Part shown: in pieces, positions 19,883 through 47,236 of the stretch
How the letters are laid out: the number at the start of each line of letters is the position of its first letter
Position numbering within the stretch: the first letter of the stretch is position 1
Origin: Jiangella mangrovi
GTDB lineage: Bacteria; Actinomycetota; Actinomycetes; Jiangellales; Jiangellaceae
Direction: 5' to 3'
Assembly: GCF_014204975.1 (NCBI RefSeq)
Contig: NZ_JACHMM010000001.1
Span: 558,001-622,000 of the forward strand
DNA: 64,000 nt
Position numbers and translations under genes: made by a program
Notes under the pieces: model-generated
Database searches by the model: none
What the model was told of the DNA's origin: nothing
Seen by the model: only the letters and a program-made list of their open reading frames with translations

Positions 19883-19883
19883 G

Positions 19884-23591: not shown

Positions 23592-23693
23592 GGCTACACC
23601 AGCCCGTCGACAGTCATCAGATCAGGTCCAACCCTCGTCAGGTCAGCGCACTCAGGCCCCATCGTGGTGGGACGGGCACCTCGGCGCAAGGCT

Positions 23694-23723
23694 CGGGCCA
23701 GGGGCGTTGCGGCCCCTGGCCCG
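23694..23723 (-). terminator. Hairpin between binding-protein and permease genes, system 3 (distal)
   Basis: Arms CGGGCCAGGGGC (23694-23705) and GCCCCTGGCCCG (23712-23723) pair perfectly over 12 bp around a 6-nt loop. It is the second of two consecutive hairpins after the binding-protein gene. Confidence 0.7.
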
Positions 23724-23732
23724 TGCCATCGG

Positions 23733-23765
23733 GCCGGTCCGGCCGGGATTCCCGGCCGGACCGGC
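23733..23765 (-). terminator. Hairpin between binding-protein and permease genes, system 3 (proximal)
   Basis: A perfect 15-bp stem with a 3-nt loop (arms 23733-23747 and 23751-23765), starting 5 bp after the stop of the binding-protein gene. With the next hairpin it should give strong but possibly incomplete termination. Confidence 0.8.
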
Positions 23766-23770
23766 ATCGG

Positions 23771-31928: not shown

Positions 31929-33146
31929 ATGACCGCTCGCCGCCGGCCGCGCTGGTCCGAGCTGCGGCCGCTGCTGCAGCCCGGAGCCGGGCCGCTCGGC
32001 CTCACGGACCGCCGCCTGGCGCGGGCGTCCTCCGTCGAGGACCTGCGGGCCCTGGCCCGGCGCCGGGCGCCGCGGGCCGTGTTCGACTACACCGACGGCG
32101 CCGCCGGCCGCGAGCTCGCGCTGCGCCGGTCGCGGCAGGCCTACGCCCGGGTCGAGTTCCTGCCGCGGGTGCTCCAGGACGTGTCGTCCGTCGACCTCTC
32201 GACGACGATCCTCGGCACTCCCTCGTCGGCGCCGCTCGTCTTCGCACCGACCGGCTTCACCCGGATGATGCACACCGAGGGCGAGCCGGCCGTCGCCCGC
32301 GTCGCGGCCCGGACCGGCCTCCCGTACGCCCTGTCGACCATGGGCACGACGTCCATCGAGCGGCTCGCCGCCGAAGTACCCAAGGGCCGCCGGTGGTTCC
32401 AGCTCTACCTGTGGCGCGACCGCGCGGCCAGCCGCGACCTGGTCGAACGCGCCCGCGAGAGCGGCTACGAGGCGCTGGTGCTGACCGTCGACACACCGGT
32501 CCCGGGGCCGCGCCTGCGCGACGCCCGCAACGGCCTCACCATCCCGCCGTCGCTGACCGCGCGCACGGTCGCCGAGGCGGTCCGGCACCCGGCCTGGTGG
32601 GTCGACCTGCTGACCACCGAGCCGCTGGAGTTCGCGTCGCTGCACCGGTTCGAGGGCACCGTCGCCGAGCTGGTGGCGCGCATGTTCGACCCGTCGGCGA
32701 CCATGGACGACCTCGCCTGGCTGCGGTCGGCCTGGCCCGGGCCGCTGATCGTCAAGGGCGTCCAGACCGTCGCCGACGCCCGAGCCGTCGTCGACGGAGG
32801 CGCCGACGCGATCGTGGTCTCGAACCACGGCGGCCGGCAGCTGGACCGCGCGCCGACGCCGCTCGAGATCCTCCCGGAGGTGGCCGACGCGGTGGGCGAC
32901 CGCGCCGAGGTGTACGTCGACGGCGGCATCCTGTCCGGCAGCGACGTGGTCGCCGCCGTCGCCCTCGGAGCCCGCGCGGCGCTCGTCGGACGGGCCTACC
33001 TCTACGGCCTGATGGCCGGCGGCGAGCGCGGGGTGCAGCGGGCCGCCGACCTGCTGCTGCAGGAGGCCGCCACCACGCTCGCGCTGCTCGGCGTGGCCCG
33101 GATCGAGGATCTAGGCCGCAACCATGTACGGCTCCGACCGGGCTGA
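31929..33146 (+). CDS. FMN-dependent alpha-hydroxy-acid oxidase/dehydrogenase
   Basis: A 405-residue TIM-barrel flavoprotein of the lactate/glycolate oxidase family. FDYTDGAAGRE is the N-terminal signature, FAPTGFTRMMHTEGE and ALSTMGTTSIE line the FMN site, LYLWRDR and LTVDTPVPGPR follow, and the catalytic His lies in SNHGGRQLD with the late FMN loop YVDGGILSGSD. It oxidises a 2-hydroxyacid to a 2-oxoacid. It sits only 14 bp before the acetamidase-family gene, so it may belong to the amide cluster. Confidence 0.9.
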   Translation: MTARRRPRWSELRPLLQPGAGPLGLTDRRLARASSVEDLRALARRRAPRAVFDYTDGAAGRELALRRSRQAYARVEFLPRVLQDVSSVDLSTTILGTPSSAPLVFAPTGFTRMMHTEGEPAVARVAARTGLPYALSTMGTTSIERLAAEVPKGRRWFQLYLWRDRAASRDLVERARESGYEALVLTVDTPVPGPRLRDARNGLTIPPSLTARTVAEAVRHPAWWVDLLTTEPLEFASLHRFEGTVAELVARMFDPSATMDDLAWLRSAWPGPLIVKGVQTVADARAVVDGGADAIVVSNHGGRQLDRAPTPLEILPEVADAVGDRAEVYVDGGILSGSDVVAAVALGARAALVGRAYLYGLMAGGERGVQRAADLLLQEAATTLALLGVARIEDLGRNHVRLRPG

Positions 33147-33160: not shown

Positions 33161-34159
33161 ATGGATGTCGTCGAGTACACGCCCTCCCGTGACCAGTACG
33201 CCTACACCTTCGGCGGCGCCGCTCCGGCCATGCGCGTCACACCGGGGACCGCCCTGCGGCTCTGGTCCGACGACGCGTTCGGGGGCGTGCTGCGCTCGAC
33301 CGACGACCTCTCCAGCGAGAAGGTCGACCTCCGGTTCGTCAACCCGCAGACCGGGCCGTTCTGGGTCGAGGGCGCCGAGCCCGGCGACACCCTGGTGCTG
33401 CACCTGGTCGACCTCGAACCGGCGCGCGACTGGGGCGCCTCGGCGGCCATCCCGTTCTTCGGCGGCATGACGAGCACCGACCGCGTCGTCACCCTGCAGG
33501 ACCCGCTGCCCGACACCACCTGGATCTACGAGCTGGACCGCGACCGCAACACGGTGGCGTTCGCGGCCCGGCACAGTGACCACCGCATCGAGCTGCCGGT
33601 CGCGCCCATGCTCGGCACGGTCGGGGTGGCTCCCGCCGGCGGCGAGGTGCGCTCCTCGCTGGTGCCCGACCGCTTCGGCGGCAACATGGACACCCCGCAG
33701 ATGCGCGCCGGCACGACGGTGTTCCTCGGCGTGAACGTCGAGGGCGCCCTGTTCTCCGTCGGCGACGGCCACTACCGCCAGGGAGAGGGCGAGGCCTGCG
33801 GCACCGCCGTCGAGGGCGCCATGACCACCACGCTCATCGTCGACCTCGTCAAGGGCGGGGCGCCGGGCTGGCCGCGGCTCGAGGACGACACCCACTGGAT
33901 GACGGTCGGGTCGAGCCGCCCGCTCGAGGACTCCTGGCGCATCGGCAACGCCGAGCTGGTGCACTGGGTCGCCGAGCTCTACGGCCTGCACACCATGGAC
34001 GCCTACCAGCTGTGCTCGCAGCTCGCCGAGGTGCCGATCGCCAACGTCGTCGACGCCAACTACAGCGTCGTGGTCAAGGCCGCGAAGTCGCTGCTGCCCG
34101 CCGCCGACGCGTTCGGCGGCATCCACGCCGACCTGCGCGACCGCGCCGCCACGCTCTGA
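33161..34159 (+). CDS. Acetamidase/formamidase family protein
   Basis: A 332-residue FmdA/AmdA-family amidohydrolase. Family segments are GPFWVEGAEPGDTLVLHL, MLGTVGVAP, FGGNMDTPQMRAGTTVFL and ALFSVGDGHYRQGEGEACGT. Members hydrolyse short amides to acid plus ammonia. It opens a run of hydrolases (nitrilase superfamily at 35052, deacetylase fold at 35954) and is followed 27 bp later by an SDR gene. The substrate is unknown; the cluster suggests a more complex amide or imide. Confidence 0.92.
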   Translation: MDVVEYTPSRDQYAYTFGGAAPAMRVTPGTALRLWSDDAFGGVLRSTDDLSSEKVDLRFVNPQTGPFWVEGAEPGDTLVLHLVDLEPARDWGASAAIPFFGGMTSTDRVVTLQDPLPDTTWIYELDRDRNTVAFAARHSDHRIELPVAPMLGTVGVAPAGGEVRSSLVPDRFGGNMDTPQMRAGTTVFLGVNVEGALFSVGDGHYRQGEGEACGTAVEGAMTTTLIVDLVKGGAPGWPRLEDDTHWMTVGSSRPLEDSWRIGNAELVHWVAELYGLHTMDAYQLCSQLAEVPIANVVDANYSVVVKAAKSLLPAADAFGGIHADLRDRAATL

Positions 34160-34186
34160 CCCTCCTCCCCCACTGAAAGGCCAGCC

Positions 34187-34945
34187 ATGGATCTGCAGCT
34201 CAGCGGCACTCGCGTCCTCGTCACCGGCGGCACCCGCGGCATCGGACGGGCCATCGTCAGGGCGTTCCTCGACGAGGGCGCCACCGTCGGCTTCTGCGGG
34301 CGCACCGCCGACGCCGTGAGCGCCACCCAGGAGGCGCTCGGCGCCCGCGGCAACGTCACCGGCACGGTGGTCGACGTCGGCGACGGCGACGCCTTGGCCG
34401 CGTGGGTGGACGAGTCGGCCGCGGCGTTCGGCGGACTCGACACCGTGGTGGCCAACGTCAGCGCGCTCGCCATCCCCGACACCGAGGAGAACTGGCAGCT
34501 CAGCCTGAACGTCGACGTCATGCACACCGTCCGGCTGGTCCGCGCCGCCCTCCCGCACCTCGAGGGGTCCTCGTCGCCGTCGATCATCGCGATCTCGAGC
34601 GTGTCCGGGCGCGAGTCGGACTTCGCCTCCGGACCCTACGGGACGGCCAAGACCGCCATCCTCGGCTACATCAGCGGGCTGGCCCTCCAGCTGGCCGAGA
34701 AGGGCATCCGCGCCAACACGGTCTCGCCCGGAAACACCTACTTCGAGGGCGGCGTCTGGGCGAGCATCGAGACCGGCAACCCCGAGCTGTACAGCACCGC
34801 GGTGGGCCTGAACCCGACCGGCCACATGGGCACGCCCGAAGAGGTCGCCGCTCCCGTGGTGTTCCTCGCCAGCCCCGTGGCCCGGCGCATCAGCGGCACC
34901 AACCTCGTCGTCGACGGCGCCCTCACCCGCGGCATCCAGGTGTAG
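34187..34945 (+). CDS. Short-chain dehydrogenase/reductase (SDR)
   Basis: A 252-residue Rossmann enzyme starting 15 nt after a GAAAGG. The cofactor motif TGGTRGIG is at about residues 14-21. The catalytic Ser is in AISSVSGRE and Tyr/Lys in YGTAKTAIL. The C-terminal GTNLVVDGALTRG is typical. Arg in the FCGRT loop after strand 2 points to NADP(H). It sits between acetamidase and nitrilase genes. Confidence 0.92.
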   Translation: MDLQLSGTRVLVTGGTRGIGRAIVRAFLDEGATVGFCGRTADAVSATQEALGARGNVTGTVVDVGDGDALAAWVDESAAAFGGLDTVVANVSALAIPDTEENWQLSLNVDVMHTVRLVRAALPHLEGSSSPSIIAISSVSGRESDFASGPYGTAKTAILGYISGLALQLAEKGIRANTVSPGNTYFEGGVWASIETGNPELYSTAVGLNPTGHMGTPEEVAAPVVFLASPVARRISGTNLVVDGALTRGIQV

Positions 34946-34976
34946 CCCGCGCCTGCCGGTCGATTGCTGACGCCGT

Positions 34977-34996
34977 CGTCGGTCATCTGACCGACG
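34977..34996. other. Palindrome between SDR and nitrilase genes
   Basis: CGTCGGTCA and TGACCGACG are separated by two bases, in the 106-bp gap. It could be an operator or a small terminator hairpin. Confidence 0.4.
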
Positions 34997-35051
34997 CGGC
35001 GGCGACGGCGAGCGCGCACGCTGGCCTCCACTCGTCCACGAGGGAGGTCAC

Positions 35052-35927
35052 ATGGCCAGGAACGTCTCCATCGCCGCGGTCAACTTCGCCGTCCAGCCGG
35101 TCGACAGCTTCGGCGGGTTCGCCGCCCACACCGAACGGCTCCTCGCCGGCTGCCGGGGCGCCGACCTGGTGGTCTACCCGGAGCTGTTCACCGTCGAGCT
35201 GTTCACGACGCTGCCGGGGTGGCAGGACCTGCCGATCGCCGAGCTGACCCGGATCGACCGCTACACCGACGACTACCTGGAGCTGTTCACGCGGCTGGCC
35301 CGGCGCAACGGCCAGCACATCGTCGCCGGGTCGCACCTGGTGGCCGACGGCGACCGCTTCCTCAACGTCGCCCACCTGTTCACGCCCGACGGCGACGTCG
35401 TCAAGCACGCCAAGACGCACATCTTCCCGGCCGAGGCCGACTGGCACACGTCCGAGGGCGACGTCTTGGAGGCCTTCGACCTGCCGTTCGCCCGGGTCGG
35501 CTTCAACGTCTGTTACGAGGCGGAGATCCCGGAGTGCGCGGCGACCCTGGCCGAGCAGGGCGCCGAGATCATCCTCAGCCCGTCGTACACGTTCACCGAG
35601 CACGGCTTCTGGCGGGTGCGCCACTCCGCCCAGGCGCGCGCCGTCGAGAACCAGGTGTACGTCGTGCACTGCAGCACCGGCGGGGCACCGGGCGCGCCGC
35701 TGCCGCTGGGCTGGGCGCAGAGCTCGATCCTCAGCCCCTGCGACGCGATCTTCTCGCCGAAGGGGATCGTCGCCGAGGCGACCGCGAACACCGAGGCGGT
35801 GGTCCGCGGCATCGTCGACCTCGACCTGCTGGCGATCAACCGCGAGACCGGCGCCGCGCCCACCTACCGCGACCGCCGCCGCCGGTCCGACCTCTACAAG
35901 ACCTGGCCGTCGCACCTCAGCCTCTGA
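35052..35927 (+). CDS. Carbon-nitrogen hydrolase (nitrilase superfamily)
   Basis: A 291-residue amidase-type enzyme with GGGAGG just upstream of the ATG. The catalytic triad is visible: Glu in VVYPELF (about 44), Lys in HAKTHIFP (about 121) and Cys in NVCYEAEIPE (about 156), with a further Glu beside the Cys. The aliphatic amidase/omega-amidase type is more likely than a true nitrilase. In this cluster it could open the half-amide released by an imide or acyl-amide hydrolase. Confidence 0.92.
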   Translation: MARNVSIAAVNFAVQPVDSFGGFAAHTERLLAGCRGADLVVYPELFTVELFTTLPGWQDLPIAELTRIDRYTDDYLELFTRLARRNGQHIVAGSHLVADGDRFLNVAHLFTPDGDVVKHAKTHIFPAEADWHTSEGDVLEAFDLPFARVGFNVCYEAEIPECAATLAEQGAEIILSPSYTFTEHGFWRVRHSAQARAVENQVYVVHCSTGGAPGAPLPLGWAQSSILSPCDAIFSPKGIVAEATANTEAVVRGIVDLDLLAINRETGAAPTYRDRRRRSDLYKTWPSHLSL

Positions 35928-35953
35928 TCTCGTCGATCCAGAAGGAGACACCG

Positions 35954-36883
35954 ATGGGACACCTCCAGCTGCCCGAGGGCAAGAAGATCGCCGTCAACCT
36001 GGGCACCGACTTCGACGCCCAGTGCCTGTGGCTCGGCGCGTTCAACCGCAACAGCCCGTCGTTCATGTCGCGCGGTGAGTTCGGCGCCGAGGTCGGCGTG
36101 CCGCGGCTGCTCGAGCTGTACGAGCGCTACGGTGTGAAGTCGACCTGGTTCACGCCCGGCCACTCCGTCGACACCTTCCCGCAGTGGTGCAAGAAGATCC
36201 TCGACGGCGGCCACGAGTTCGGCCACCACGGCTACTACCACGAGATCCCGCCGGCCATCAGCCGCGACACCGAGCGCCGGCTGGTCGACCTCGCGTTCGA
36301 GTCGTTCAAGCGGGTCCTCGGCGTCCGCCCGACGGGGTACCGCTCGCCCTACTGGGACTACAGCGAGAACACGCTGGACATCATCGAGGAGTCCGGCTTC
36401 ACCTACGACAGCAGCCTCATGGCCCGCGACCTGGTGCCGTACCACCCGCAGCGCTGGCAGGTGAACTGGGAGCAGGGCAATGTCGCCGGCAAGGCCAGCC
36501 ACGTGCTGGAGATCCCGGTGAACTGGTACCTCGACGACTTCCCGCCCCTGGCCTACACCGGGACGTCGACGGGGATGCAGGACACCGAGTCGATCTTCCG
36601 GCGCTGGCGCGACATCTTCGACTACGCCTACGAGCGGGTCGAGAACCCGGTCTACGCCACCTGCGTGCACCCGCAGATCGTCGGGCAGGCGCACCACATG
36701 CTCTGGTACGAGCGGCTCATCGAGCACATCTCGTCGAAGGACGGGGTCTGGTTCGCCACGCTCGACGAGATCGCCGCCGTCTGGGTCGACGACGAGGACG
36801 ACCACGCGCGCATGGCACTGCCCGACGTGCGCGGCACCCAGCCGCCGCCGGCCGACTCCAGCTGGGCCGCCGGGGCGGCCTGA
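35954..36883 (+). CDS. NodB-fold polysaccharide deacetylase family protein (PgdA/imidase-like)
   Basis: A 309-residue cytoplasmic protein (no signal peptide), ATG with AAGGAG 6 nt upstream. Motif 1 is TDFDAQ (metal Asp), motif 2 is HEFGHHGYYHE (two metal His) and motif 3 is RSPYWDYS. The late His is in YATCVHPQIVG. Lack of export argues against a wall deacetylase. The same subfamily (HpPgdA-like) includes cyclic imidases and allantoinase-like enzymes that open C-N bonds, which fits the neighbouring amidases. Assignment to imide cleavage is inference. Confidence 0.85.
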   Translation: MGHLQLPEGKKIAVNLGTDFDAQCLWLGAFNRNSPSFMSRGEFGAEVGVPRLLELYERYGVKSTWFTPGHSVDTFPQWCKKILDGGHEFGHHGYYHEIPPAISRDTERRLVDLAFESFKRVLGVRPTGYRSPYWDYSENTLDIIEESGFTYDSSLMARDLVPYHPQRWQVNWEQGNVAGKASHVLEIPVNWYLDDFPPLAYTGTSTGMQDTESIFRRWRDIFDYAYERVENPVYATCVHPQIVGQAHHMLWYERLIEHISSKDGVWFATLDEIAAVWVDDEDDHARMALPDVRGTQPPPADSSWAAGAA

Positions 36884-36912
36884 ACCGCGCCGGCCCGGCC
36901 TATCATCCGACC

Positions 36913-38688
36913 ATGGCACGCGTCTTCGGCGCACCCGCCGACGCGACCCGCTGGGCCTGCGTCGACGATCGCGACGTGCTCAGCAGCGCGCCGCGCGGCT
37001 GGCCGGACGCCGACCCCGCGCTGCTGACGTACGTGCACGCCGCGGCGGCGGCCGGCGAGCCGGCGGCGTTCCTGTGGAGCGGCGGGCCGGGCCGGGTGGT
37101 GGCGGTCGGCGTCACCCCGGTCTGGTCCGCCGGCCCGCGCCCGGTCGCCGAGGTGACCACCGAGGCCGCGCCCGCGCCGTACGGCCTCACCTGGCGCGAG
37201 CTGCAGGTGCTGACGCTAGTCGCGGGCGGGCTGACGAACACCGAGATCGCGGCGCGGCTGCGCACGGCGCGCCGGACGGTGGCCACGCACGTCGAGCGGC
37301 TGCTCACCAAACTCGAGGTGCCCACCCGCACGGCCGCGGCGTCGACGGCGGTCGACGCCCGGCTGCTGGTGCTGCCCATCCCCGGCGGCGCCGGTGGGCT
37401 GGCGGCCATCGGCGTGCAGCGGCTCGAGGCGGCGGTGTCACGGCGGACGACGGCGCCGGCCCGGCCGGGGCCGAGACCGGTGCGCAAGCACCCGATCGTC
37501 ATCGGCGGCGTGTATCCCGCCGAGGGCCGGCTGTCCGCCGACGGCCAGGGCCGGCGACGGGCGGCGGAGCTGGCCGTCGGCGAGGTGAACGCCCACGGCG
37601 GTGTCGACGGGCACGAGCTGGTGCACGTCGCCGTCGAGGCCGACCTCGCCGACCTCACGTCGCTCGCCGGGGGCATCGACGACCTCGTCGGACGCGGTGT
37701 CGACGCCGTGACGCTGGGCTACACGCTGGCCCGGCACGACTTCGCCGGTGTGTTCGCCTCGGCCGCGGACCACGGCTGCCCGGTCCTGCACTCGGCGACG
37801 TCGCAGAGCGCGCAGTCGCTGGTGCTCGAGGAGCCGGTGCGCTTCGGCAACGTCTTCCAGGTGTGCGCGCCCGAGAGCCGCTACGGCGTCGGGTTCGTGC
37901 GGGCGCTGCGTGACTTCGAGGCGTCCGGGTCGTGGCGGCCGCACCGCCGCGAGCTGCTCGTCGTCGACTCCACCGACCCGCACCTGACCACGTTCACCGC
38001 GCAGGCGCACGAGGCCGCCGAGCGGGCCGGCTGGCGGGTCGAGGTCGAGCGGGTCGACTTCCTGCGGCCCGGCTGGCGGCAGGTCCTCGACGTCATCGGG
38101 CAGCGCGACCCGGCCGCCGTCATGGTCGCCACGTGGGTCGAGCCGAGCCTGCTCGACTTCCTGCGCCGGTTCCGGGCCACCGGGTCACAGGCGCTGGTCT
38201 ACGCCATCTACGCGCCGTCGGTGCCGGGCTTCCTCGAGCGAGCCGGCGCGCTGGCCGAGGGGTTGTCGTGGGCGACGGTCATCGGCACCTACCAGGACGG
38301 TCTGGCCGGGCGGTTCGCGCACGAGTTCGCCGGCGCGCACCACAGCGACCCGGGCCGCTCCGGCGCCGGCATCCACTACGACATGGTCCACCTGCTCACG
38401 CAGGCCTGGCGGCAGGTCGCCAACCCGCACGACACCGCCGCCGTCAATCAGCAGCTGCGCACGCTGGTGTACCGCGGGGTCAGCGGCGCCTACTGGTTCG
38501 GCAGCCCCGGCCAGTCGGCGCTGACCTACCCCGACGACACCGCCGACCCGTCCATCGCCCAGGCGCACCTCGTGCACCAGGTGCAGGACGGCCGGCACGT
38601 CATCGTGGCGCCGTCGCCGTACGCCCAGGGGACGTTCCGCCCGCCGCCACTCAGCTCGACCGGCCCGCCCGGTGCCGCAGCACGCTGA
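36913..38688 (+). CDS. One-component regulator: LuxR-type HTH fused to an amide/branched-chain amino acid type solute-binding domain
   Basis: A 591-residue protein without signal peptide or membrane helix. Residues 1-85 are of unknown type. A LuxR/GerE helix-turn-helix follows at about 92-150 (LTWRELQVLTLVAGGLTNTE, recognition helix TARRTVATHVERLLTKL). From about 193 to 565 there is a type I periplasmic-binding fold of the amide-binding kind (PIVIGGVYPAEGRLSADGQG, later YAIYAPSVPGFLERAG and YDMVHLLTQAWRQV), resembling AmiC and urea/short-chain amide receptors. It should sense a small amide in the cytoplasm and control the upstream amidase genes, 29 bp away. Its 3-prime end overlaps the opposite methyltransferase gene by 38 bp. 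Confidence 0.88.
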   Translation: MARVFGAPADATRWACVDDRDVLSSAPRGWPDADPALLTYVHAAAAAGEPAAFLWSGGPGRVVAVGVTPVWSAGPRPVAEVTTEAAPAPYGLTWRELQVLTLVAGGLTNTEIAARLRTARRTVATHVERLLTKLEVPTRTAAASTAVDARLLVLPIPGGAGGLAAIGVQRLEAAVSRRTTAPARPGPRPVRKHPIVIGGVYPAEGRLSADGQGRRRAAELAVGEVNAHGGVDGHELVHVAVEADLADLTSLAGGIDDLVGRGVDAVTLGYTLARHDFAGVFASAADHGCPVLHSATSQSAQSLVLEEPVRFGNVFQVCAPESRYGVGFVRALRDFEASGSWRPHRRELLVVDSTDPHLTTFTAQAHEAAERAGWRVEVERVDFLRPGWRQVLDVIGQRDPAAVMVATWVEPSLLDFLRRFRATGSQALVYAIYAPSVPGFLERAGALAEGLSWATVIGTYQDGLAGRFAHEFAGAHHSDPGRSGAGIHYDMVHLLTQAWRQVANPHDTAAVNQQLRTLVYRGVSGAYWFGSPGQSALTYPDDTADPSIAQAHLVHQVQDGRHVIVAPSPYAQGTFRPPPLSSTGPPGAAAR

Positions 38689-39262: not shown

Positions 39263-40918
39263 TCACGCGAGGACCAGCCCGATGAGGTCGGGAGCGAACC
39301 GCACGCCGCTGGCGTCGACGTTCTTGTCGACGACGGTGAACCGGACGGTGTGCGTCCCCCGGCCCAGCGCCACCCGGCCCACCCGCTCGGTCTTGAAGGA
39401 GCGCACCGACACCGTCGAGGTGTCGAACGGGCCGCCGAGCCGCTCACCGTCGACGTCGATGACCACGACGCCGGCGTTCGCCTGGTGCCGGAACCGCGCG
39501 TACAGGTCGTACTGGCCGCCGCGGGTGATCTCGATGGTCGCCTCGAGGTACTGGCCGTAGTCGGTGGCCCGCACCTCGACGACGGCGCCGCCACTAGCCG
39601 CCGCGTCCGCCGTCCGGACCACGGTCAGGCCGGGCGACGTCGTCGACGGCAGGTCCTCGACCTCGAAGCCGAGGCGCGTGGCCGGGCCGCGGCGGCCGGT
39701 GTCGGCGCCGCCGGTCAGCCAGGCCAGGTCGAAGGTCGCGAACACGATGTCGCGCGAGAAGCTGGTCGTCACGCCGGGCTGGCTCTCGCGGCCGTACAGC
39801 ACGCCGATGCGCCCGTCCGGCAGCGCGACGGTGTCGGAGTACGACGCCGGGCCTTCGGTCAGGACGCGGCTGTACGGCCAGCTCATGCCCTCGTCGTAGG
39901 AGATCGAGACGGTCATGTTGCGGCGCGTCGGCGAGTCGGTGCGCGAGAACACCAGCCGGCTGTCCTCGCGCTCCCCCAGCCCGCTGAGCCGGACGATGCC
40001 GGTGTCGATCGCGTTGACCGGCCGGGCCGCCGCGTCGAGCACGGGCGGGGACCAGGTGGCGCCGCGGTCGGTGCTGACCGACGTGATGCGCGGGTGCGTG
40101 CCGCCCGACGCGTACCGGCCGAGCACCACCAGCGAGCCGTCGGGCCGCTCGATCAACCGGGCCTCGTTCAGCGGGTAGGCGCCGTCCAGCGGCACGCCGC
40201 CGCCCGCCTGCCAGGTGGCGCCGCCGTCGTCGCTGTGGATGACGGTGACGCCGTAGCGCCGCTCGGCGACCGGGAACGCGATGGCCCTGCGGTGCCAGAC
40301 CTGCAGCATCAGCCGGCCGTCGGCGAGCTGCAGGCCGTGCCCCGGGCCGGGCATGTGCAGCGTCTGGCCGTTCGGGTCGCCGTCGAACAGCTGGGTCAGC
40401 TCGGTCGGCGACGACCACGTCTCGCCGTCGTCGTCGCTGGTCACGACGTACAGCCGGGAGCTGTCCGGCGAGCCGCCGGTGTTGCCCGCGTCGCGGAAGC
40501 ACTCGGCGTGGAACAGGAAGATGCGCCCGGTCTCGCGGTCGACCAGCGGCGTCGGGTTGATGAAGGACTGGACGCCGTCGGAGCGGCGCACGTAGCGCAG
40601 CGGCTCCCAGGTGCGGCCGCCGTCGCGGCTGCGGCGGACGGCGATGTGGTGCGGGTCGGCGTCGTGCTGGGTGATGCGGGCTTCGGAGAACGCCAGCACC
40701 GAGCCGGCCACCGTCGTCGTCAGCCCGAAGACGTGGAAGACCGCGAGGCCGTCGTCGCCGGCCTGGAACACCAGCGACTCGTGGAAGTCGCCGGTGTCGG
40801 CCGAGGCCGTCGCCGCCCGAGGCAGGGCGGCGGCGGGCGAGGCCAGCGCGCCGATCGCGGCGGTGCCGGCGGCGGCGCCGAGGACGAGGGTGCGACGGCT
40901 GATCGGGGTGTGTTCCAC
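39263..40918 (-). CDS. Secreted sialidase-like six-bladed propeller with C-terminal carbohydrate-binding-like domain
   Basis: A 551-residue exported enzyme. GTG 40918 is chosen for the AAGGAG located 6 nt upstream. A twin-arginine signal (SRRTLVLGAAAGTAAIGALA) leads it. Five Asp-box repeats are visible (SRDGGRTWEP, SDDDGETWSS, SDDGGATWQA, STDRGATWSP, SYDEGMSWPY), a hallmark of GH33-type propellers. The C-terminal about 130 residues (GQYDLYARFRHQANAGVVVI, then RGTHTVRFTVVDKN) look like a jelly-roll sugar-binding domain. Sialidase is the default name, but not all Asp-box enzymes cleave sialic acid. It is the tail of the LacI-led unit. Confidence 0.88.
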   Translation of the reverse strand: MEHTPISRRTLVLGAAAGTAAIGALASPAAALPRAATASADTGDFHESLVFQAGDDGLAVFHVFGLTTTVAGSVLAFSEARITQHDADPHHIAVRRSRDGGRTWEPLRYVRRSDGVQSFINPTPLVDRETGRIFLFHAECFRDAGNTGGSPDSSRLYVVTSDDDGETWSSPTELTQLFDGDPNGQTLHMPGPGHGLQLADGRLMLQVWHRRAIAFPVAERRYGVTVIHSDDGGATWQAGGGVPLDGAYPLNEARLIERPDGSLVVLGRYASGGTHPRITSVSTDRGATWSPPVLDAAARPVNAIDTGIVRLSGLGEREDSRLVFSRTDSPTRRNMTVSISYDEGMSWPYSRVLTEGPASYSDTVALPDGRIGVLYGRESQPGVTTSFSRDIVFATFDLAWLTGGADTGRRGPATRLGFEVEDLPSTTSPGLTVVRTADAAASGGAVVEVRATDYGQYLEATIEITRGGQYDLYARFRHQANAGVVVIDVDGERLGGPFDTSTVSVRSFKTERVGRVALGRGTHTVRFTVVDKNVDASGVRFAPDLIGLVLA

Positions 40919-40932
40919 GGGCTCTCCTTGGA

Positions 40933-41847
40933 TCAACGGGGGGTGATCAGGTGCGCGTCGAGCGGGGCGAGCAGGTCGAGCAGCCCGGCGCGTTCGGCCG
41001 GGCTCGCGGGGACGAACGGGGCCGCGACGTGCGGCGGGCAGAGGCCGCGGGCGGCGAGGACGGCCTTGACGGCGGGCACGCCGCGGCGGACGGTATGCAG
41101 CGCGAGGACGCGGTCGGCGGTCTCCTGCGCGGCGTCGGCGGCGGCCATGCGCCCGGACCGGAACGCGTCGTACAGCTCGGTACAGAGCACCGGTGCGAGG
41201 TTCGCGATGCCGGGCACGATGCCGTCGGCGCCCGCCTCGAGCCCGGCGACCAGCTGCGTCTCCGACCCCTGGCTGACCCCGACGTCGGGACGGCGGCGGG
41301 CCGCGGCGACCAGGTGACCCAGCAGCGCGAGGTCGCCGGAGCTGTCCTTGATGCCGACGACGTGCGGCATCGCCAGCACCTCGTCGAGCACCGCGGGTGT
41401 CATCGGCACGCTGTAGCTCGGCACGTTGTACGCGACCACCGGCACGCCGAGCCCGGCGAACGCGGCGAAGTGGGCGACCACCTCGTCGTCGCGGTGCCGG
41501 AAGTAGATCGGCGGGCTGACGACGACGGCGTCCGGCTCGGCCAGGCGGACGGCGGCGGCCCGCTCCAGCGCCTCGGCCGTCCCCGCGGCCGTGACGTTGA
41601 CCAGCACCGGACCGTCGCCGGTGAGCTCGCGCCAGCGCGCCGCGACACCGGCCGCGAACTCCGTCAGGGCGGACGTGGGCAGCAGCGGGCCCTCGCCGTT
41701 GCTGCCGAACAGCATGAGGCTGCGCGCGCCGGCCCGAGCCAGCGCCGCGAGCAGGTCGTACGCCGCGGCGGCGGACGGCTCGCCGGGCGCGCTCATCGGC
41801 GTCACGAGCGGGACCATGACGCCGCTCAGCAGGTCTCGGCCGTTCAT
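40933..41847 (-). CDS. Dihydrodipicolinate synthase/N-acetylneuraminate lyase family aldolase
   Basis: A 304-residue class I aldolase. The substrate-carboxylate motif is FGSNGEGPLL, the catalytic Tyr is in VVAYNVPSY and the Schiff-base Lys in VGIKDSSGD. It starts 1 nt after the FAD-oxidoreductase stop. Next to a sialidase-like gene a sialic acid or other 2-keto-3-deoxy-sugar-acid lyase is more plausible than lysine biosynthesis, though the sequence does not settle the substrate. Confidence 0.88.
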   Translation of the reverse strand: MNGRDLLSGVMVPLVTPMSAPGEPSAAAAYDLLAALARAGARSLMLFGSNGEGPLLPTSALTEFAAGVAARWRELTGDGPVLVNVTAAGTAEALERAAAVRLAEPDAVVVSPPIYFRHRDDEVVAHFAAFAGLGVPVVAYNVPSYSVPMTPAVLDEVLAMPHVVGIKDSSGDLALLGHLVAAARRRPDVGVSQGSETQLVAGLEAGADGIVPGIANLAPVLCTELYDAFRSGRMAAADAAQETADRVLALHTVRRGVPAVKAVLAARGLCPPHVAAPFVPASPAERAGLLDLLAPLDAHLITPR

Positions 41848-41848
41848 G

Positions 41849-43462
41849 TCAGTACCCCTTGATCGCAGGCCACGCCAGCTCGACGCCGTCGGCGGCCAGG
41901 TCGTCCTGGAACGCGGCCAGCCGGTCACCGGACTCGTGCACCTGGCCCGGCTCCAGTCCACCGGCCAGGCAGTGCGCGGCCAGCGCGCCGGCCACCTCGC
42001 CGACGTTCCACTCGACCGGGTGCAGCCGGTAGCAGCCGTTGGTGATGTGCGTCGTCCCGATGTTCTTGCCGGCCGGCAGCAGGTTGCGCACCCGCTGCGG
42101 GACCAGCGCGCCGAGCGGGATCTGGAACGGGCTGCTGGCGACGTCGATGTAAGTGTCGCCGCCGGTCGAGGGGTGCAGGTCGATGCGGTACATGCCGACG
42201 CCGACGGAGTCCGGGTACTCGACCGCCCCGGCGTCGCCGCGCACAGCCAGCGACAGGTCCTGCTCGACGACGCGGCGCCGCGAGAGGATGCGGCGCGACT
42301 CGCGGATGTACGGCGCCTTCGCCAGGCCGTCGGTCGTGCCCATGACGTCGCCGCGCAGCCGCAGCCCCGGCCAGCCGGTGCCGCCGTCGGGCCGCGGCGC
42401 CTCGGTCTGCAGCCAGTAGAGCATCGACATCGACAGCTCGCGGGCGCCGGCGAGGTGCTTGTCGCGCTCCTCGTCGCTGACCCCGATGAGCGGGCCGGGC
42501 AGGTAGTCGATCATCGGCCAGTTGACGACGGTGACGTCGCTGTCGGCGAAGCCGGGCCGGAACACCGAGCGCGCGACGATGCGGCGGAACGCCCACAGCT
42601 CGCGGTCGCCCGGGTCCTTGCTCTGGTCGGCGACGACCGGGCCGGTGTCGCCGTTGGGGACGAAGGCCCGCTCGAACGGCTCCAGCGTCCGCGGGTCCGG
42701 CGCACGCAGGCTGATCAGCGGGTTCGGCCACTTCGGCGGCTGGTACTCGCGCCACGCGGCGTACCCGGCGGGGCGGTCGACGGTGTGGTCCTCGCCGGCG
42801 CGGTGCTCGACCGCGAACACCCACGAGAACGCCTGCATGTTGTCCGGCTGCGCCTCGTCGGGCGCGCTGGGCTCGCCGGTGTCGTGCCGCGACTCGAACC
42901 CGGTGACGTGCTCGGTGCCGGTGAGCGGCAGCAGGTCGCCCAGCTCGGTGGCGTCGAGGACGTAGGGCGCGCGGATCTCGACCCGGACGCCGTCGGGACC
43001 CTCGACCACGACGGCGGTGACGCGGTCGCCGTCGACGCTCGCGGCCACCGGGCGGTGCCGGTAGAGAATGCGCAGCCGGCCGGCTGCGATCCAGGGCGCC
43101 ACCATGGCCTCGAGCACGGCGGCGCCGACGCGCGGCTCGTGGCAGAGCCGGCTGACCTTCCCCTGGCCGGGGTTGAGGTCGCGGGCCTCGCGGGCCCAGT
43201 CGGTCAGCGGGTACCAGGTGCGGTAGTAGGCGCGGATGTTCTCGCGCAGCTCGCGGTAGGTGCGGGTGCTGCCGAACTGCTCGATCCAGGCGTGCTCGTC
43301 CGGCGGGACGCCCTGGCTGGTCAGCTGGCCGCCGATCCAGTCGGTCTCCTCGGTGAGCAGGACGGACCTGCCTCGCCGCAGTGCCGCGAGGGCCGCGGCG
43401 ACGCCGCCGAGCCCACCGCCCACCACGAGGATGTCGGTCGTCGTTGCCGTCTCACTGCTCAC
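41849..43462 (-). CDS. FAD-dependent oxidoreductase (FAD_oxidored family)
   Basis: A 537-residue flavoprotein with the Rossmann motif VGGGLGGVAAALAALRRG at about 14-31 and the family segment LLTEETDWIGGQLTSQG. RLCHEPRVGAAVLEAM and YVLDATELGDLLPL follow, and the late segment LLPAGKNIGTTHITNGCYRL is conserved in carbohydrate-cluster members. GTG 43462 overlaps the previous gene stop as GTGA. The reaction is unknown; such proteins are frequent in glycan-use loci. Confidence 0.88.
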   Translation of the reverse strand: MSSETATTTDILVVGGGLGGVAAALAALRRGRSVLLTEETDWIGGQLTSQGVPPDEHAWIEQFGSTRTYRELRENIRAYYRTWYPLTDWAREARDLNPGQGKVSRLCHEPRVGAAVLEAMVAPWIAAGRLRILYRHRPVAASVDGDRVTAVVVEGPDGVRVEIRAPYVLDATELGDLLPLTGTEHVTGFESRHDTGEPSAPDEAQPDNMQAFSWVFAVEHRAGEDHTVDRPAGYAAWREYQPPKWPNPLISLRAPDPRTLEPFERAFVPNGDTGPVVADQSKDPGDRELWAFRRIVARSVFRPGFADSDVTVVNWPMIDYLPGPLIGVSDEERDKHLAGARELSMSMLYWLQTEAPRPDGGTGWPGLRLRGDVMGTTDGLAKAPYIRESRRILSRRRVVEQDLSLAVRGDAGAVEYPDSVGVGMYRIDLHPSTGGDTYIDVASSPFQIPLGALVPQRVRNLLPAGKNIGTTHITNGCYRLHPVEWNVGEVAGALAAHCLAGGLEPGQVHESGDRLAAFQDDLAADGVELAWPAIKGY

Positions 43463-45438
43463 GCGGGGGATCCCTCTCTGACGAACTGGACGCGCCGGGT
43501 GCCGCCGTCGACGGTGACGACTTCCGGCTCGCCGTTGGTGGTGCCCGGCACGGCGACGCGGACGTCCCCGGTGCCGGTGACGGTGGCGCCGACCTCGTCG
43601 GCCGTGCGCCGGTAGGCGGTGACGACGACGCCCGGTGCGGCGTCGAGCAGGACGGCGCCGTCGAGCGTGACCACGAGCCGATCGCCGGCGGTCACCGTGA
43701 GGCGGCCGTCACCGAGCGGCAGGTTGCTCAGCTCGGCCGGTCGTCCGGGGTGGGCGAAGCGCCAGCCGTCGGTCCGTGCCTCGGCCAGCTCGCCGAACGC
43801 GAGGTGCGCCAGCAGCCCGCCCCAGGCCATCAGCCCGTCGGAGCGCTGCTGGAAGCCGGTGAGGTCCTCGCCGTCGAAGGCCGGGTAGTTCTCGCGGACC
43901 GCGCTGTGGGTGTCCCACTCGGCGAGGAAGAGGCCGAGCAGGGCGCCGCTGACCGCGCGGCTGTGGTCGCGCAGGTCGTAGCGGCGCAGCCCCTGCACGG
44001 CCAGGTAGGCCATGGGCGCCCAGATGCGGCCGCGCCAGTAGGTGGCGGCGAAGCCGGGGTCGTTGCGGGCGACGCTGGGCAGCGGCCGGTCGCCGCCGAG
44101 GACGCCGGGTTGCAGGAGGGCGTCGGCGATGTCCCGCGCTGTCGCCTCGTCCGGGAACCCACCGAGCAGGGGGTACAGCAGCGTCGGCGAGACGTGCGGG
44201 TCGTGGCTGCCGTCGGCGCGCAGGTTGCGGTAGGCGTGCGCGTCGTCGTCCCAGAACGCCTTCGCGGCGGTGGCGCGCGCGTCGTCGGCCTCGGCCGTGA
44301 GCCGGGCGGCCGTGGCGTCGTCGCCGAGGATCGCGGCCATGGTGGCCAGGGCCTCGGCGTCGGCGACGTGCAGCGCGTTCAGCCCGGCGTCGGCGAGGTC
44401 CATGGTGTGCGTCGCCGGGTCGTACGTGGCCTCGTCGTACATGGGCGAGTCGTCCAGGCCGGACTCGCGCTTGGTGCGGTCGAGGGTGGCCGACTCCGGG
44501 TCGCCGTCGATCGGGTCCGACCCCCACGCCAGCAGCCCGTACGGGCCGCGGCGGTGGGCCGGCCACCAGTCGTGCCAGGCCAGCAGTCCGTCGAAGGTCT
44601 CTTCGAGGAGGCGCCGGTCGCGGGTCTCGTCGGACAGCCCGCCGGCGAGGTACGCGTTGAGGACGGTCAGCGCGCCGACCGGCGGCTGCGAGCGGTCCCA
44701 CGTGGTGCCGCGCTCGTCGCTGACGCGGTTCGGGATCATCCCGGCGTCGTCGGCGAACGGCAGGATCTGCGCCAGGATGCCGCGGGCGTAGTCGCGGTCG
44801 ACCACGCTCGCGACCAGCCCGGTGAAGAACGTGTCCCACGCGTGCAGCGCCCAGGTGCCGTAGAACCCCTGCCGCTCGACGGAGACGAAGTCGCGCGACG
44901 TCGGGGTCAGCACGCGGTCGAGGTCCGGCGCGTGGATGGTGTTCCAGGTGACGGCGCGGGTCAGCGCGTCGGCGGCGGTGCCGTACCAGCCTGCGGAGCG
45001 GGGGCGGACGGCGTCCGCGGCGGCCCGGTGCTCCTCGACGACGGCGCCGGCGTCGCCGGCCTTCGCGGCGGACGCGAGCGGCGCGATCAGGACGTCGTCG
45101 CCGTCGCGGTCCAGTCGCCAGCCGGGCGTCTCCGGCCAGTCGACGACGACGATGCCGGCGGACTCGGCGCGCACGTACAGCTCGTCGCCGGGGCCGCCGG
45201 CCATGGCCAGCCGCAGCTCGACGCCGTCGACCTCGACCGTGACCTCGGCGAACGAGCCGTCGACGGTGTGGTGGCCGAGCCGGACCAGGCCGTGGCGCCA
45301 GGTGAACCCGTCGAACACGGGCGTGCCCGCGGCGTCGAGCAGGCCGAAGCGGACCCGCAGGCCCGACGGCAGGTGGGTCATGCCGGTGTGGGTGCGGACG
45401 TCCCAGGTGTTCCAGCCGGAGGGTGCGGGAGTGGTCAT
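43459..45438 (-). CDS. GH63/trehalase-like (alpha/alpha)6 glycoside hydrolase
   Basis: A 659-residue cytoplasmic protein, ATG 45438 overlapping the ATPase stop. An N-terminal beta-sandwich-like part (about 1-170) precedes the helical barrel. Barrel segments typical of the MGH1/GH63 clade are GFYGTWALHAWDTFFTGLVA, DRSQPPVGALTVLNAYLA and YWRGRIWAPMAYLAVQGLRR, with NYPAFDGED late. No signal peptide, so it should process an imported oligosaccharide. The linkage specificity is unknown. Confidence 0.85.
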   Translation of the reverse strand: MTTPAPSGWNTWDVRTHTGMTHLPSGLRVRFGLLDAAGTPVFDGFTWRHGLVRLGHHTVDGSFAEVTVEVDGVELRLAMAGGPGDELYVRAESAGIVVVDWPETPGWRLDRDGDDVLIAPLASAAKAGDAGAVVEEHRAAADAVRPRSAGWYGTAADALTRAVTWNTIHAPDLDRVLTPTSRDFVSVERQGFYGTWALHAWDTFFTGLVASVVDRDYARGILAQILPFADDAGMIPNRVSDERGTTWDRSQPPVGALTVLNAYLAGGLSDETRDRRLLEETFDGLLAWHDWWPAHRRGPYGLLAWGSDPIDGDPESATLDRTKRESGLDDSPMYDEATYDPATHTMDLADAGLNALHVADAEALATMAAILGDDATAARLTAEADDARATAAKAFWDDDAHAYRNLRADGSHDPHVSPTLLYPLLGGFPDEATARDIADALLQPGVLGGDRPLPSVARNDPGFAATYWRGRIWAPMAYLAVQGLRRYDLRDHSRAVSGALLGLFLAEWDTHSAVRENYPAFDGEDLTGFQQRSDGLMAWGGLLAHLAFGELAEARTDGWRFAHPGRPAELSNLPLGDGRLTVTAGDRLVVTLDGAVLLDAAPGVVVTAYRRTADEVGATVTGTGDVRVAVPGTTNGEPEVVTVDGGTRRVQFVREGSPA

Positions 45439-46220
45439 CCGGTCACCGATCCGGCGTCGTCGAGGTCGAGGGCGGCGTCGAGCAGCGCCCGCGTGTACTC
45501 GTGCTGGGGCGCGCCGAGCACGTCGGAGGCCGGGCCCTCCTCGACGACCAGGCCGCGGCGCATGACGGCGACGCGGTCGGCGATCTGGTGCACCACGCCG
45601 AGGTCGTGCGAGATGAACAGCATGGCCAGGTGGTGGGTGCGGCGCAGGTCGACCAGCAGCCGCAGGATCTGTGCCTGCACGCTCACGTCCAGCGCCGACA
45701 CCGCCTCGTCGCAGACCAGCAGCCGCGGCCGCACGGCCAGCGCCCGGGCGATGCTGACCCGCTGGCACTGCCCGCCGGAGAGGTCGCCGGGACGGCGGGA
45801 CGCGACGTCGGCGTCGAGGCCGACGTCGGCGAGCAGTGCGTGGACGGCCGCGCGCCGGTCGCCGGACGGCGCCGCCGACGGGTGCGTGCGCCAGGACTCG
45901 CCGATGATCGCGTCGATGCTCATGCGCGGGTTCAGCGACGAGCGCGGGTCCTGGAAGACCATCTGCACGGCGCGCTGCAGCGGGGACGGACGGCGGCCGA
46001 CCCGGTCCAGCGCCCGGCCCTCGAACGTGACGGTGCCGGCGTCGGGGCGCTGCAGCCCGGCGACGCAGCGGGCGACGGTCGTCTTGCCCGAGCCGGACTC
46101 GCCGACCAGTCCGACGGTCTGCTCGGCGCCGACGTCGAGGCTCACGCCGTCGACGGCGACGAACGGATCGCGCCGTCGCCCGAACGTCACCCGCAGGTCG
46201 CGGATCTCGAGCAGACTCAT
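45435..46220 (-). CDS. Oligopeptide-type ABC ATPase (OppF-like), system 4
   Basis: A 261-residue ATPase, shorter than its relatives because it lacks the C-terminal cysteine-rich oligopeptide domain. Walker [11 protein letters not shown]-loop FQDPRSSLNPRM, signature LSGGQCQRVSIARAL, Walker B LLVCDEAVSALD (Pro of the usual DEP replaced by Ala) and H-loop ISHDLGV. It overlaps both neighbours by 4 bp. Part of the LacI-led glycan operon. Confidence 0.92.
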   Translation of the reverse strand: MSLLEIRDLRVTFGRRRDPFVAVDGVSLDVGAEQTVGLVGESGSGKTTVARCVAGLQRPDAGTVTFEGRALDRVGRRPSPLQRAVQMVFQDPRSSLNPRMSIDAIIGESWRTHPSAAPSGDRRAAVHALLADVGLDADVASRRPGDLSGGQCQRVSIARALAVRPRLLVCDEAVSALDVSVQAQILRLLVDLRRTHHLAMLFISHDLGVVHQIADRVAVMRRGLVVEEGPASDVLGAPQHEYTRALLDAALDLDDAGSVTG

Positions 46221-47236
46221 GGGGCGAGCACCTCCTCGGCGAAGTGGCAGGCGCTGAACCGGCCCGGCGCGACCTCGCGGACGGCGGGCACCTCGCTCCG
46301 GCAGCGGTCCTGGGCGATCGGGCAGCGCGGGTGGAACGGGCAGCCGGCCGGGCGGTTGGCCGGGGTGGCCGGCGCACCGGGCAGCGGGTCGGCGAGCGCG
46401 GTCTTCGTGCGCACCGCCGGCACGCTGCGGACCAGCGCCTTCGTGTAGGGGTGGGCCGGGCGGCGCAGCACCGCCGGTGCCGGGCCGCGCTCGGCGACCC
46501 GTCCGGCGTACATGACCACCACTTGCGACGCCACGTTGGCGACGACCCGCAGGTCGTGGCTGACCAGCAGGATCGAGAGCCCCTCGTCCTGCTGGATCGA
46601 GTGCAGCAATGTCAGGATCCGGGCCTGGACGGTGACGTCGAGCGCCGTCGTCGGCTCGTCGGCGAGCAGCAGCGAGGGGTTGCCGGCCAGGGCCAGTGCG
46701 ATCATGGCCCGCTGCCGCAGCCCACCGGAGAACTCGTGTGGATAGTTCCCCGCCCGCGAAGCCGGGTCCGGCACGCCGGCGCGGTCGAGCAGCTCGACCA
46801 CCCGCCGGCGCACCTCGCCGCGGCCGACGCCGTCGCGCCGGAGGATCTCACCGACCTGCCGGCCGATGCGCTGCGTCGGGTTCAGCGCGGCCAGCGGATC
46901 CTGGAAGATCATCGAGATCTCGTGGCCGCGGGCCTTGCGCCGGCGACCGGCGCCTGCGTGCAGCAGGTCCTCGCCCCGCCACAGCAGCCGGCCGCCGGTG
47001 CCGGCGCCGTCCGGCAGCAGCCCGATGATCGCGTTGGCGGTCATCGTCTTGCCGCTGCCGGACTCGCCGATCAGGCCGACCGTGGTGCCGGCCGGCACGT
47101 CGAACGACACGCCGTCGACGATCCGGAGGTCCCCGCGCGTTCCCGGCAGGTCGACGGTGAGCCCGTCGACCTGCAGCAACGCCTCGTGCTGGGCCACCGG
47201 GGAGCCGCCGGCTCGCGCCGTCCGTACGTCGCTCAC
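46217..47236 (-). CDS. Oligopeptide-type ABC ATPase (OppD-like), system 4
   Basis: A 339-residue ATPase. GTG 47236 overlaps the binding-protein stop as GTGA; the longer open frame above it is out of register with the real upstream gene. Walker [11 protein letters not shown]-loop [12 protein letters not shown], signature [15 protein letters not shown], Walker [13 protein letters not shown] and H-loop VSHDLRV are intact. C-terminal cysteine motif [15 protein letters not shown]. Confidence 0.92.

Follow-up and report, generated by a model that had tools for sequence, protein, structure and literature searches.

Gene organization of the locus

In this study, we analyzed a window of 64,000 nucleotides from Jiangella mangrovi (contig NZ_JACHMM010000001.1, positions 558,001 to 622,000) with emphasis on a gene whose product joins a LuxR-type helix-turn-helix (HTH) domain to a solute-binding domain, and on the hydrolase genes and the predicted operator preceding it. 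The original prediction, made from the letters of the window, had placed acetamidase, SDR, nitrilase-superfamily, NodB-fold and regulator genes in this order, and our analysis agrees with it in order, strand and coordinates. The locus comprises the following features:

33161–34159, plus strand: acetamidase/formamidase family gene (PF03069, E 2e-28, 99.7 bits vs. cut-off 27; PDB 5ubu, E 6e-65)
34187–34945, plus strand: SDR-family oxidoreductase gene (PF13561/PF00106)
34977–34996, no strand: predicted operator, a perfect 9-2-9 dyad in the gap between the SDR and nitrilase genes
35052–35927, plus strand: nitrilase-superfamily amide hydrolase, Nit (PF00795, E 1.4e-25, 90.6 bits vs. 23.2)
35954–36883, plus strand: NodB-fold metal hydrolase of HpPgdA/cyclic-imidase type, NodB (PF01522, E 3e-16; PDB 3qbu, E 1.6e-64)
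36913–38688, plus strand: LuxR-HTH/solute-binding-domain fusion regulator, 591 aa (Pfam, PDB 3h5l alignment, family alignment)

From acetamidase to regulator, the intergenic gaps amount to 27, 106, 26, and 29 nt, the SDR-Nit gap being the sole sizeable one. All five genes are 91–99.7% identical in the sister species (locus L051), with values of 95% for the acetamidase and 91% for the SDR. The acetamidase did not reach the FmdA equivalog (69.7 bits vs. a cut-off of 500). For unannotated loci, a home-made gene caller was used; some start codons were shifted, which was handled via stop-to-stop reading frames.

Domain architecture of the regulator

Within the regulator, three regions were delimited:

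37018–37179, plus strand: residues 36–89, short module preceding the HTH (weak similarity by hidden Markov model (HMM) to unfused LuxR proteins of loci L058–L061)
37186–37347, plus strand: residues 92–145, LuxR-type (GerE) DNA-binding domain (PF00196, E 2.1e-14)
37486–38652, plus strand: residues 192–580, solute-binding domain (Peripla_BP_6; 3h5l-like; Pfam, PDB, family profile)

The GerE domain scored 53.3 bits against a Pfam cut-off of 23.5, and Peripla_BP_6 (PF13458) matched residues 194–529 with 69 vs. 31.7 bits, thereby covering profile positions 1–323 of 343. The binding domain is complete because the alignment with PDB 3h5l spans residues 192–580 (E 4e-41), and the predicted union of a LuxR-type HTH with a whole solute-binding fold was thus confirmed. 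An N-terminal hydrophobic segment, judged by eye without a signal-peptide program, was visible neither in the regulator nor in NodB, in agreement with the proposed lack of an export signal. In classical LuxR and NarL proteins the HTH is C-terminal; relative to these, the domain order of the fusion is reversed, with the HTH first and the sensor second. The LacI family was absent among the regulator's Pfam matches at E ≤ 0.01.

Both Pfam domains were matched in all 19 full-length fusions that we found (E ≤ 0.001 for GerE). Many positions of the binding domain are invariant across the 19 proteins, conserved residues flank the junction on both sides, and the two fusions located on plasmids (L148, L149) are annotated as single coding sequences. 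The fusion is real, neither a chance event nor an assembly join. That two genes were read as one through faulty annotation or assembly could be suggested by the public naming of these two plasmid proteins solely as 'ABC transporter substrate-binding protein', but this explanation is refuted by 19 open frames matching both domains with residues conserved on either side of the junction, and we give it virtually no credence. The public entries concerned (WP_193591265.1 and WCA62514.1) leave the DNA-binding domain unmentioned.

The closest solved relative of the binding domain is PDB 3h5l. A profile built from seven fusions matched 3h5l with E 3.7e-81 and 3hut with 7e-18, followed by AmiC with 8.6e-6, confined to a short segment, and by urea-binding proteins with 0.002–0.003. 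Peripla_BP_5 (PF13433) stayed under its cut-off in the window regulator (21.3 vs. 27 bits) and was matched by 17 of the 19 fusions at E ≤ 0.001, as members of the wider superfamily. By sequence comparison, the binding domain is placed outside the AmiC subfamily, and its earlier assignment to the AmiC/urea-amide receptor kind was not confirmed. The similarity to 3h5l, a putative branched-chain amino acid ABC transporter binding protein, spans the whole binding domain; unlike the fusion, 3h5l stands alone without an HTH. With stand-alone binding proteins, the domain of the window shares about 24–35% identity.

Distribution of the fusion family

Using the regulator or its binding domain as query, 19 full-length fusions were found. 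Genome searches covered one genome per species, and those of the class, the phylum and the family of genome G298 scored 3–5 candidates per genome, so that the fusion counts are lower bounds. The window and L051 account for two of 22 genomes of the family and two of 12 of the genus, the own genome counted. The fusion of Pseudonocardia asaccharolytica (L009) was one of 21 loci returned, the remaining 20 matching around the HTH only. Further fusions were L052 and L053 among 393 class genomes, three among 396 phylum genomes (L054–L056), nine new ones among 250 genomes of the G298 family (L097–L105), and the two plasmid fusions L148 and L149 among 72,556 records. Another search of 27 genomes gave no new fusion. 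The remaining matches were stand-alone binding proteins. The fused binding domains of the 19 proteins form one clade (support 100/98); some fusions are closely related, namely the window with L051 and L103 with L104. Literature searches on this architecture revealed no LuxR-HTH/solute-binding fusion in titles or abstract beginnings, with most subscription papers outside coverage, and the words 'periplasmic' and 'solute-binding' are absent from the accessible portion of a survey of actinobacterial LuxR proteins (PMC3466318).

Predicted operator

The dyad at 34977–34996, CGTCGGTCA-TC-TGACCGACG, is perfect over 20 bp and ends 55 bp before the start codon of Nit. It is identical in L051, and its counterpart in L009 reads GTCGGTCA-TC-TGACCGAC. 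A blind palindrome search of 13 stretches, with that of L103 comprising only 11 bases, detected the dyad in eight of the 13 gaps (window, L051, L009, L054, L055, L056, L097, and L100) and no such dyad in the given gaps of L052, L053, L101, and L105. Thereby, ATCCGTCA-NN-TGACGGAT constitutes the whole or the core of the dyads in L054, L055, L056, and L097, and L100 carries it with mismatches outside the core. The 18-bp core consensus is ATC[CG]GTCA-NN-TGAC[CG]GAT.

The pattern ATCSGTCANNTGACSGAT was searched for in 17 fusion loci (355,797 bases). Allowing at most 0, 1, 2, and 3 mismatches, it was found at 7, 13, 18, and 24 sites, compared to expected means of 0, 0.03, 0.3, and 3.9 from 30 first-order Markov simulations. 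The 18 sites with at most two mismatches are spread over 14 of the 17 loci, and 17 of them lie outside called genes; the remaining one, in L103, overlaps the end of the gene that directly precedes an SDR. Once L148 and L149 are included, the core recurs in 15 of 19 loci. Three sites are present in L056 (before NodB, in the regulator-importer gap, and before HyuA) and one in L148 between Nit and the regulator. The L104 contig begins within a gene that is preceded by the dyad in L103 and L105. In the window, the dyad place is unique at up to three mismatches (0.03 matches expected), and an exact TCSGTCANNTGACSGA occurs once in the 7.16 Mb genome, in the SDR-Nit gap. Recognition by NarL/LuxR-type proteins involves 7-2-7 half-sites, with which the half-sites and the 2-bp spacer of the dyad are compatible. 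The direct target of the regulator is most likely the unit of nitrilase, NodB, and regulator.

Gene neighborhoods and possible partner exchange

A NodB-fold gene is present in the fetched locus of 17 of the 19 fusions, all loci having been found via the regulator only. The 7.16 Mb genome contains eight NodB-family genes including the cluster copy, i.e., about 0.02 per 20 kb, and the binomial probability of such an association is about 1e-26, and 1e-15 if a density of 0.1 is assumed, calculated with a one-genome background and with related loci that are non-independent. NodB is lacking in two loci. L053 has genes of the hydantoinase A and B types in its place; in L098, the contig opens on a partial SDR gene, and C45 hydrolase, LLM oxidoreductase, and hydantoinase A/B type genes are present. 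A gene for at least one C-N bond hydrolase (NodB, nitrilase, C45-type Ntn hydrolase, hydantoinase/caprolactamase type, or penicillin amidase) accompanies the fusion in all 19 loci; representatives were assigned by Pfam and NCBIfam, the rest by BLAST to representatives or by public annotation. This supports the proposal of a single-protein sensor-regulator tied to amide-type hydrolases; homologs of the regulator that never neighbor amidases, which would have spoken against it, are the opposite of what was found. Counted per locus, HyuA or HyuB type genes are present in 6, C45 in 10, SDR in 14, and nitrilase genes in 5 of the 19.

Transporter genes differ among the loci. Branched-chain type ABC importers are found in L052, L054–L056, L097, L099, and L100, and an MFS-type transporter in L053 and L103 (best NCBIfam TIGR00883, under cut-off) as well as, judged by eye, in L102, L104, and L105. 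L101 has a sugar-type transport system, the binding protein of which is a weak match. Near several fusions (window, L009, L102–L105), no importer of the binding-protein type was seen.

Regulator and NodB do not share one history. Identity of the window NodB amounts to 71% with its counterpart on the Agrobacterium plasmid L149 and 40% with the one in L009; for the regulator the values are 49% with L009 and 39% with L149. In the NodB tree the window and L149 stand together (100/99), and in the regulator tree the window groups with L009 and L148, apart from L149. Because the two trees disagree, the families were joined more than once or one partner was replaced, and they were not merely co-inherited. 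The order Nit-NodB-regulator is common to the window and L149; in L009 and L148, Nit-NodB is divergent from the regulator. At E ≤ 1e-50, Nit was detected in two of the 393 class genomes drawn, exactly those with a window-type regulator, and the idea that Nit is a common enzyme present by coincidence was rejected for this class. On other plasmids, Nit relatives were found in 10 of the 72,556 records at E ≤ 1e-40, the Salmonella record described below being one of them.

Some loci showed additional features. In Paracoccus pantotrophus (L154, NZ_CP044425.1, 248907–263747), a copy of the same Nit, NodB, and regulator unit, spread over several frames (broken or frameshifted), is followed by hydantoinase B and A genes. 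A Salmonella record (L155, NZ_LN868944.1, 433786–448661), labelled as a plasmid of 728 kb and bearing uronate catabolism genes, encodes Nit and NodB with 57% and 69% identity to those of the window near aldehyde dehydrogenase, flavin adenine dinucleotide (FAD) oxidoreductase, cupin protein, and APC permease genes; the fusion regulator is absent from this stretch. At position 10573 of L098, an operator-like site with one mismatch lies beside genes at 8174–10503 that by eye resemble urease subunits, a possible urea-releasing step. In L101, a penicillin-amidase-type gene and then an EutB (ethanolamine ammonia-lyase) gene at 13140–16917 lie downstream of the fusion regulator, SDRs, and NodB, which hints at an N-acylethanolamine-type substrate in this lineage.

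Enzymes and possible chemistry

In the PDB, the window NodB is closest to HpPgdA (3qbu), with 109 of 267 residues identical. The HpPgdA active-site residues Asp12, Asp14, His86, His90, and His247, as named in the available part of PMC3084791, correspond to D19, D21, H92, H96, and H239 of NodB; all five are kept, also in 20 of 20 aligned NodBs including 15 from fusion loci. For HpPgdA, the same excerpt describes a metal-binding protein without signal peptide, with a poorly accessible active site and related to PuuE allantoinase. The window NodB scored 81.7 bits against the PuuE allantoinase model TIGR03212, with an equivalog cut-off of 424.6. The cyclic imidase HxnM of Aspergillus, the closest known structural homologue of which is HpPgdA, was assigned to the opening of 3-hydroxypiperidine-2,6-dione, with the amide hydrolase HxnN next in the pathway (PMC9304392, in excerpt). 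The likeness of NodB to HpPgdA and HxnM lies in the NodB fold, with the five active-site residues as in HpPgdA; HxnN is FAAH-like, unlike the nitrilase-like enzyme of the window.

The catalytic triad of the nitrilase superfamily is Glu-Lys-Cys, and that of Nit is kept in four of four homologues aligned. The nearest PDB entry of Nit is mouse Nit2 (2w1v, E 1.7e-18), with an archaeal nitrilase close behind (2e-17). Because of the HpPgdA similarity and the HxnM pathway, the opening of an imide by NodB and subsequent cleavage of the half-amide by Nit would be the leading reading of the enzyme pair.

L148 belongs to strain YJN-D, which in the accessible text of PMC9869045 appears among the iprodione degraders and is credited with ipaH, ddaH, and duaH, of which ddaH cleaves the hydantoin ring. 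Elsewhere on the L148 plasmid, the annotation names no amidase.

Origin of the fusion

In L058–L061, a separate LuxR gene and a binding-protein/ABC operon are divergently oriented. L059–L061 also contain DMFA2-type genes (Pfam-confirmed for L059), and the L058 contig ends short of that place. With a profile of fusion residues 36–160, the LuxR proteins of these loci scored 89–96 bits vs. at most 68 for the other non-fusion LuxR proteins compared; with an HMM of the pre-HTH segment alone they were among the best non-fusion matches, weakly (E 0.013–0.15). DmfR, encoded on pAMI2 of Paracoccus aminophilus, is a LuxR-family activator of dimethylformamidase genes in the presence of dimethylformamide (DMF), as reported in the available part of PMC4543880. 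The L059 LuxR protein is 28.7% identical to DmfR over 342 residues (E 3e-29, set of 21 sequences), and the other three are similar. The alignments of these four proteins with DmfR extend across the length of the unfused proteins (328–342 residues), those of most fusions over about 50–100 residues around the HTH, the longest being L100 with 191. DmfR resembles the fusions in its LuxR HTH and in the control, predicted for the fusions, of an amide hydrolase; it differs by its own N-terminal region and by the lack of a binding-protein domain, the fusions being without that region and having the binding domain added C-terminally.

Among 85 genomes of the L058–L061 family, 14 contained such a LuxR gene (15 matches). 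Thirteen of the 15 genes have a divergently oriented neighbor from the same binding-protein family, with small open reading frames in between in L132 and L133; the two exceptions are L140, located at a contig end, and L143, whose neighbor is cut off. The binding proteins of these unfused systems are sister to the fused domains (support 91/91). The fusion-type dyad is exact in one unfused locus (L059 = L131) and present at three mismatches in L142, and five of the 13 unfused gaps examined contain ATCGGYAGATCTRCCGAT or a close variant, which shares outer arms and spacing with the fusion-type dyad; the others show neither. A single fusion of two neighboring, functionally coupled genes, in which the former sensor was lost, would be the simplest account. 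Acquisition of the domain from the binding protein of the neighboring importer was rejected, nine importer binding proteins forming a separate clade (100/100); eight of these come from genomes also carrying a fusion.

Stand-alone relatives of the binding domain also adjoin dimethylformamidase-type genes on Aminobacter and Agrobacterium plasmids. In one Aminobacter plasmid (L150, 6424–10221), a response regulator, an ATP-binding protein whose position suggests a kinase, and a stand-alone member of this binding-protein family lie near a dimethylformamidase gene, possibly a two-component version of the same sensor.

Proposed mechanism and alternative explanations

The fusion, its family, its gene neighbors and the recurrent dyad were established by computation. 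On this basis, we consider it rather probable that the regulator acts as a one-component sensor in which LuxR HTH and binding domain together control imide-type hydrolases via the dyad. The N-terminal sensor of a DmfR-type LuxR regulator would have been lost, and the solute-binding protein of a neighboring amide-type ABC importer would have been added C-terminally. The fused protein presumably remains cytoplasmic and would bind a small amide-type solute between the lobes of its binding domain, most likely a cyclic imide, hydantoin, lactam, or half-amide product. As a dimer, it may then act through the HTH on the 18–20 bp dyad; control of nitrilase, NodB, and regulator from 34977–34996 would include self-control, and activation rather than repression is suggested by analogy with DmfR. 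NodB probably opens the ring to the half-amide, which the nitrilase-family enzyme would cleave to an acid and ammonia or an amine. A further-reaching account is one that we hold tentatively, at slightly below even chance: a regulator family would have arisen from a single fusion of divergent neighbors, one a LuxR activator of DmfR type and the other the binding protein belonging to its amide importer, and then spread as a portable cassette of sensor, operator, and enzymes for cyclic imide/hydantoin-type compounds through Actinomycetota and Pseudomonadota, including conjugative plasmids, one of them in an iprodione-degrading strain, with the NodB partner swapped at least once.

Among known systems, LacI/GalR proteins are one-component regulators in which an N-terminal HTH is followed by a fused sensor of binding-protein fold. 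The fusion shares this layout; it differs in having a LuxR HTH and Peripla_BP_6 and no LacI-type domains. AmiC has a periplasmic-binding-protein fold and acts in the cytoplasm. As in the AmiC-AmiR system of Pseudomonas, a binding-protein-fold amide receptor would govern the expression of amide hydrolases; AmiC-AmiR differs in consisting of two proteins, in the binding-protein subfamily of AmiC, and in AmiR working via an RNA-binding ANTAR domain (PMC8934654, in excerpt).

Several results weigh against the proposed mechanism and origin. At up to two mismatches the dyad is missing in four of the 19 fusion loci (L053, L101, L104, and L149, the latter also at up to three mismatches). At one mismatch, the genome has nine places vs. 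five for a reversed-pattern control, and the eight extra ones are not clearly above background; also, the consensus was drawn from the same loci that were scanned, so that the simulations measure rarity and are not an independent prediction. Nit stayed under the cut-off of all seven NCBIfam models matched. According to the available text of PMC3084791, HpPgdA itself was inactive on allantoin and on the acetylated polyamines/amines and dipeptides tested. No importer gene was seen in the window cluster. DmfR scored 61 bits with the N-terminal profile of the fusions, no better than ordinary LuxR proteins, and gave no match with the pre-HTH segment, the link to DmfR running via L058–L061. The sister grouping with the unfused binding proteins reaches only 91/91 on a long branch, and a GAF domain is under the Pfam cut-off in two of the unfused sensors and unlisted in the other two. 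Furthermore, AlphaFold models from two-sequence alignments (window and L009) had predicted local distance difference test (pLDDT) values of 46 for the full length and 45 for the binding domain alone.

With the same sensor-regulator, the pathway could instead be the breakdown of N-acylated or N-carbamoylated, polyamine-like amines, in which NodB deacylates, the nitrilase cleaves an amide that is either terminal or of the carbamoyl kind, and the released amine undergoes oxidation. In support of this, a primary-amine oxidase and an aldehyde dehydrogenase gene adjoin NodB-Nit-regulator in L148; aldehyde dehydrogenase, FAD oxidoreductase, glnT, and succinate-semialdehyde dehydrogenase genes lie nearby in L149; Nit-NodB of the Salmonella record is near aldehyde dehydrogenase, FAD oxidoreductase, and permease genes; Nit weakly matches the N-carbamoylputrescine amidase model (50.8 bits vs. 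a cut-off of 410); and HpPgdA homologues are reported beside polyamine importers in the excerpt of PMC3084791. However, the hydantoinase/caprolactamase type genes in 6 of 19 loci point to rings, an amine oxidase is absent from the window cluster, and, within the same excerpt, HpPgdA was inactive on N-acetylputrescine, -spermidine, and -cadaverine, though on allantoin too. Altogether, this pathway appears unlikely, yet it is the strongest of the alternatives.

Considerably less probable is a single cluster under an AmiC-type sensor, which would degrade an imide to a keto acid with the help of acetamidase, SDR, nitrilase, NodB, and the gene directly upstream:

31929–33146, plus strand: flavin mononucleotide (FMN)-dependent hydroxyacid oxidase-type gene (PF01070), judged to lie outside the system

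For such a cluster speak the consecutive arrangement from FMN oxidase through regulator on a single strand with gaps of 14 to 106 nt and the retention of acetamidase and SDR in the sister species. However, no match to the FMN oxidase gene was found within 20 kb around the sister-species cluster, and it was rejected as a pathway member together with the oxidase step predicted originally. The sole exact dyad of the genome lies downstream of the SDR, between SDR and nitrilase; acetamidase and SDR gave no match in L009, L148, and L149, the nitrilase-NodB-regulator loci outside the genus; and the binding domain is not AmiC-like. Among the loci checked, the acetamidase, positioned upstream of the dyad, is conserved in the sister species only, and the idea of one five-gene cluster under the regulator was not upheld. 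Equally improbable in our view is a binding domain that no longer senses small molecules and serves as a dimerization scaffold or as a reporter on importer proteins, with control depending on another factor. The identity of about 24–35% to stand-alone binding proteins and the AlphaFold models, unusable for a check of ligand residues, would leave room for it; against it stand the full length of the domain, its many positions invariant in 19 of 19 fusions, and the location of several fusions in loci that showed no importer of this type.

Other features of the window

On the minus strand, the stretch 39263–51679 encodes a BNR sialidase-type protein (PF13088) and next, as judged by eye, a DapA/NanA-like lyase, an FAD-dependent oxidoreductase, a glycosidase-like protein, an oligopeptide-type ABC transporter, and a LacI-like regulator, and thereby resembles a sugar-acid catabolic cluster. 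Successive oligopeptide/dipeptide-type ABC transporter gene sets were recognized by eye at 5890–25531, also on the minus strand.

Significance

Both the unfused gene pair and the fused gene can be observed, together with related dyads, and thereby a concrete route is outlined by which a transporter binding protein may turn into the sensor of a transcription factor. An orphan sensor gains a candidate operator, target genes, and an enzyme pair, and proteins annotated as 'ABC transporter substrate-binding protein' are flagged as likely regulators. Should an imide or a hydantoin prove to be the ligand, the regulator would be a candidate biosensor for pesticide-type rings.

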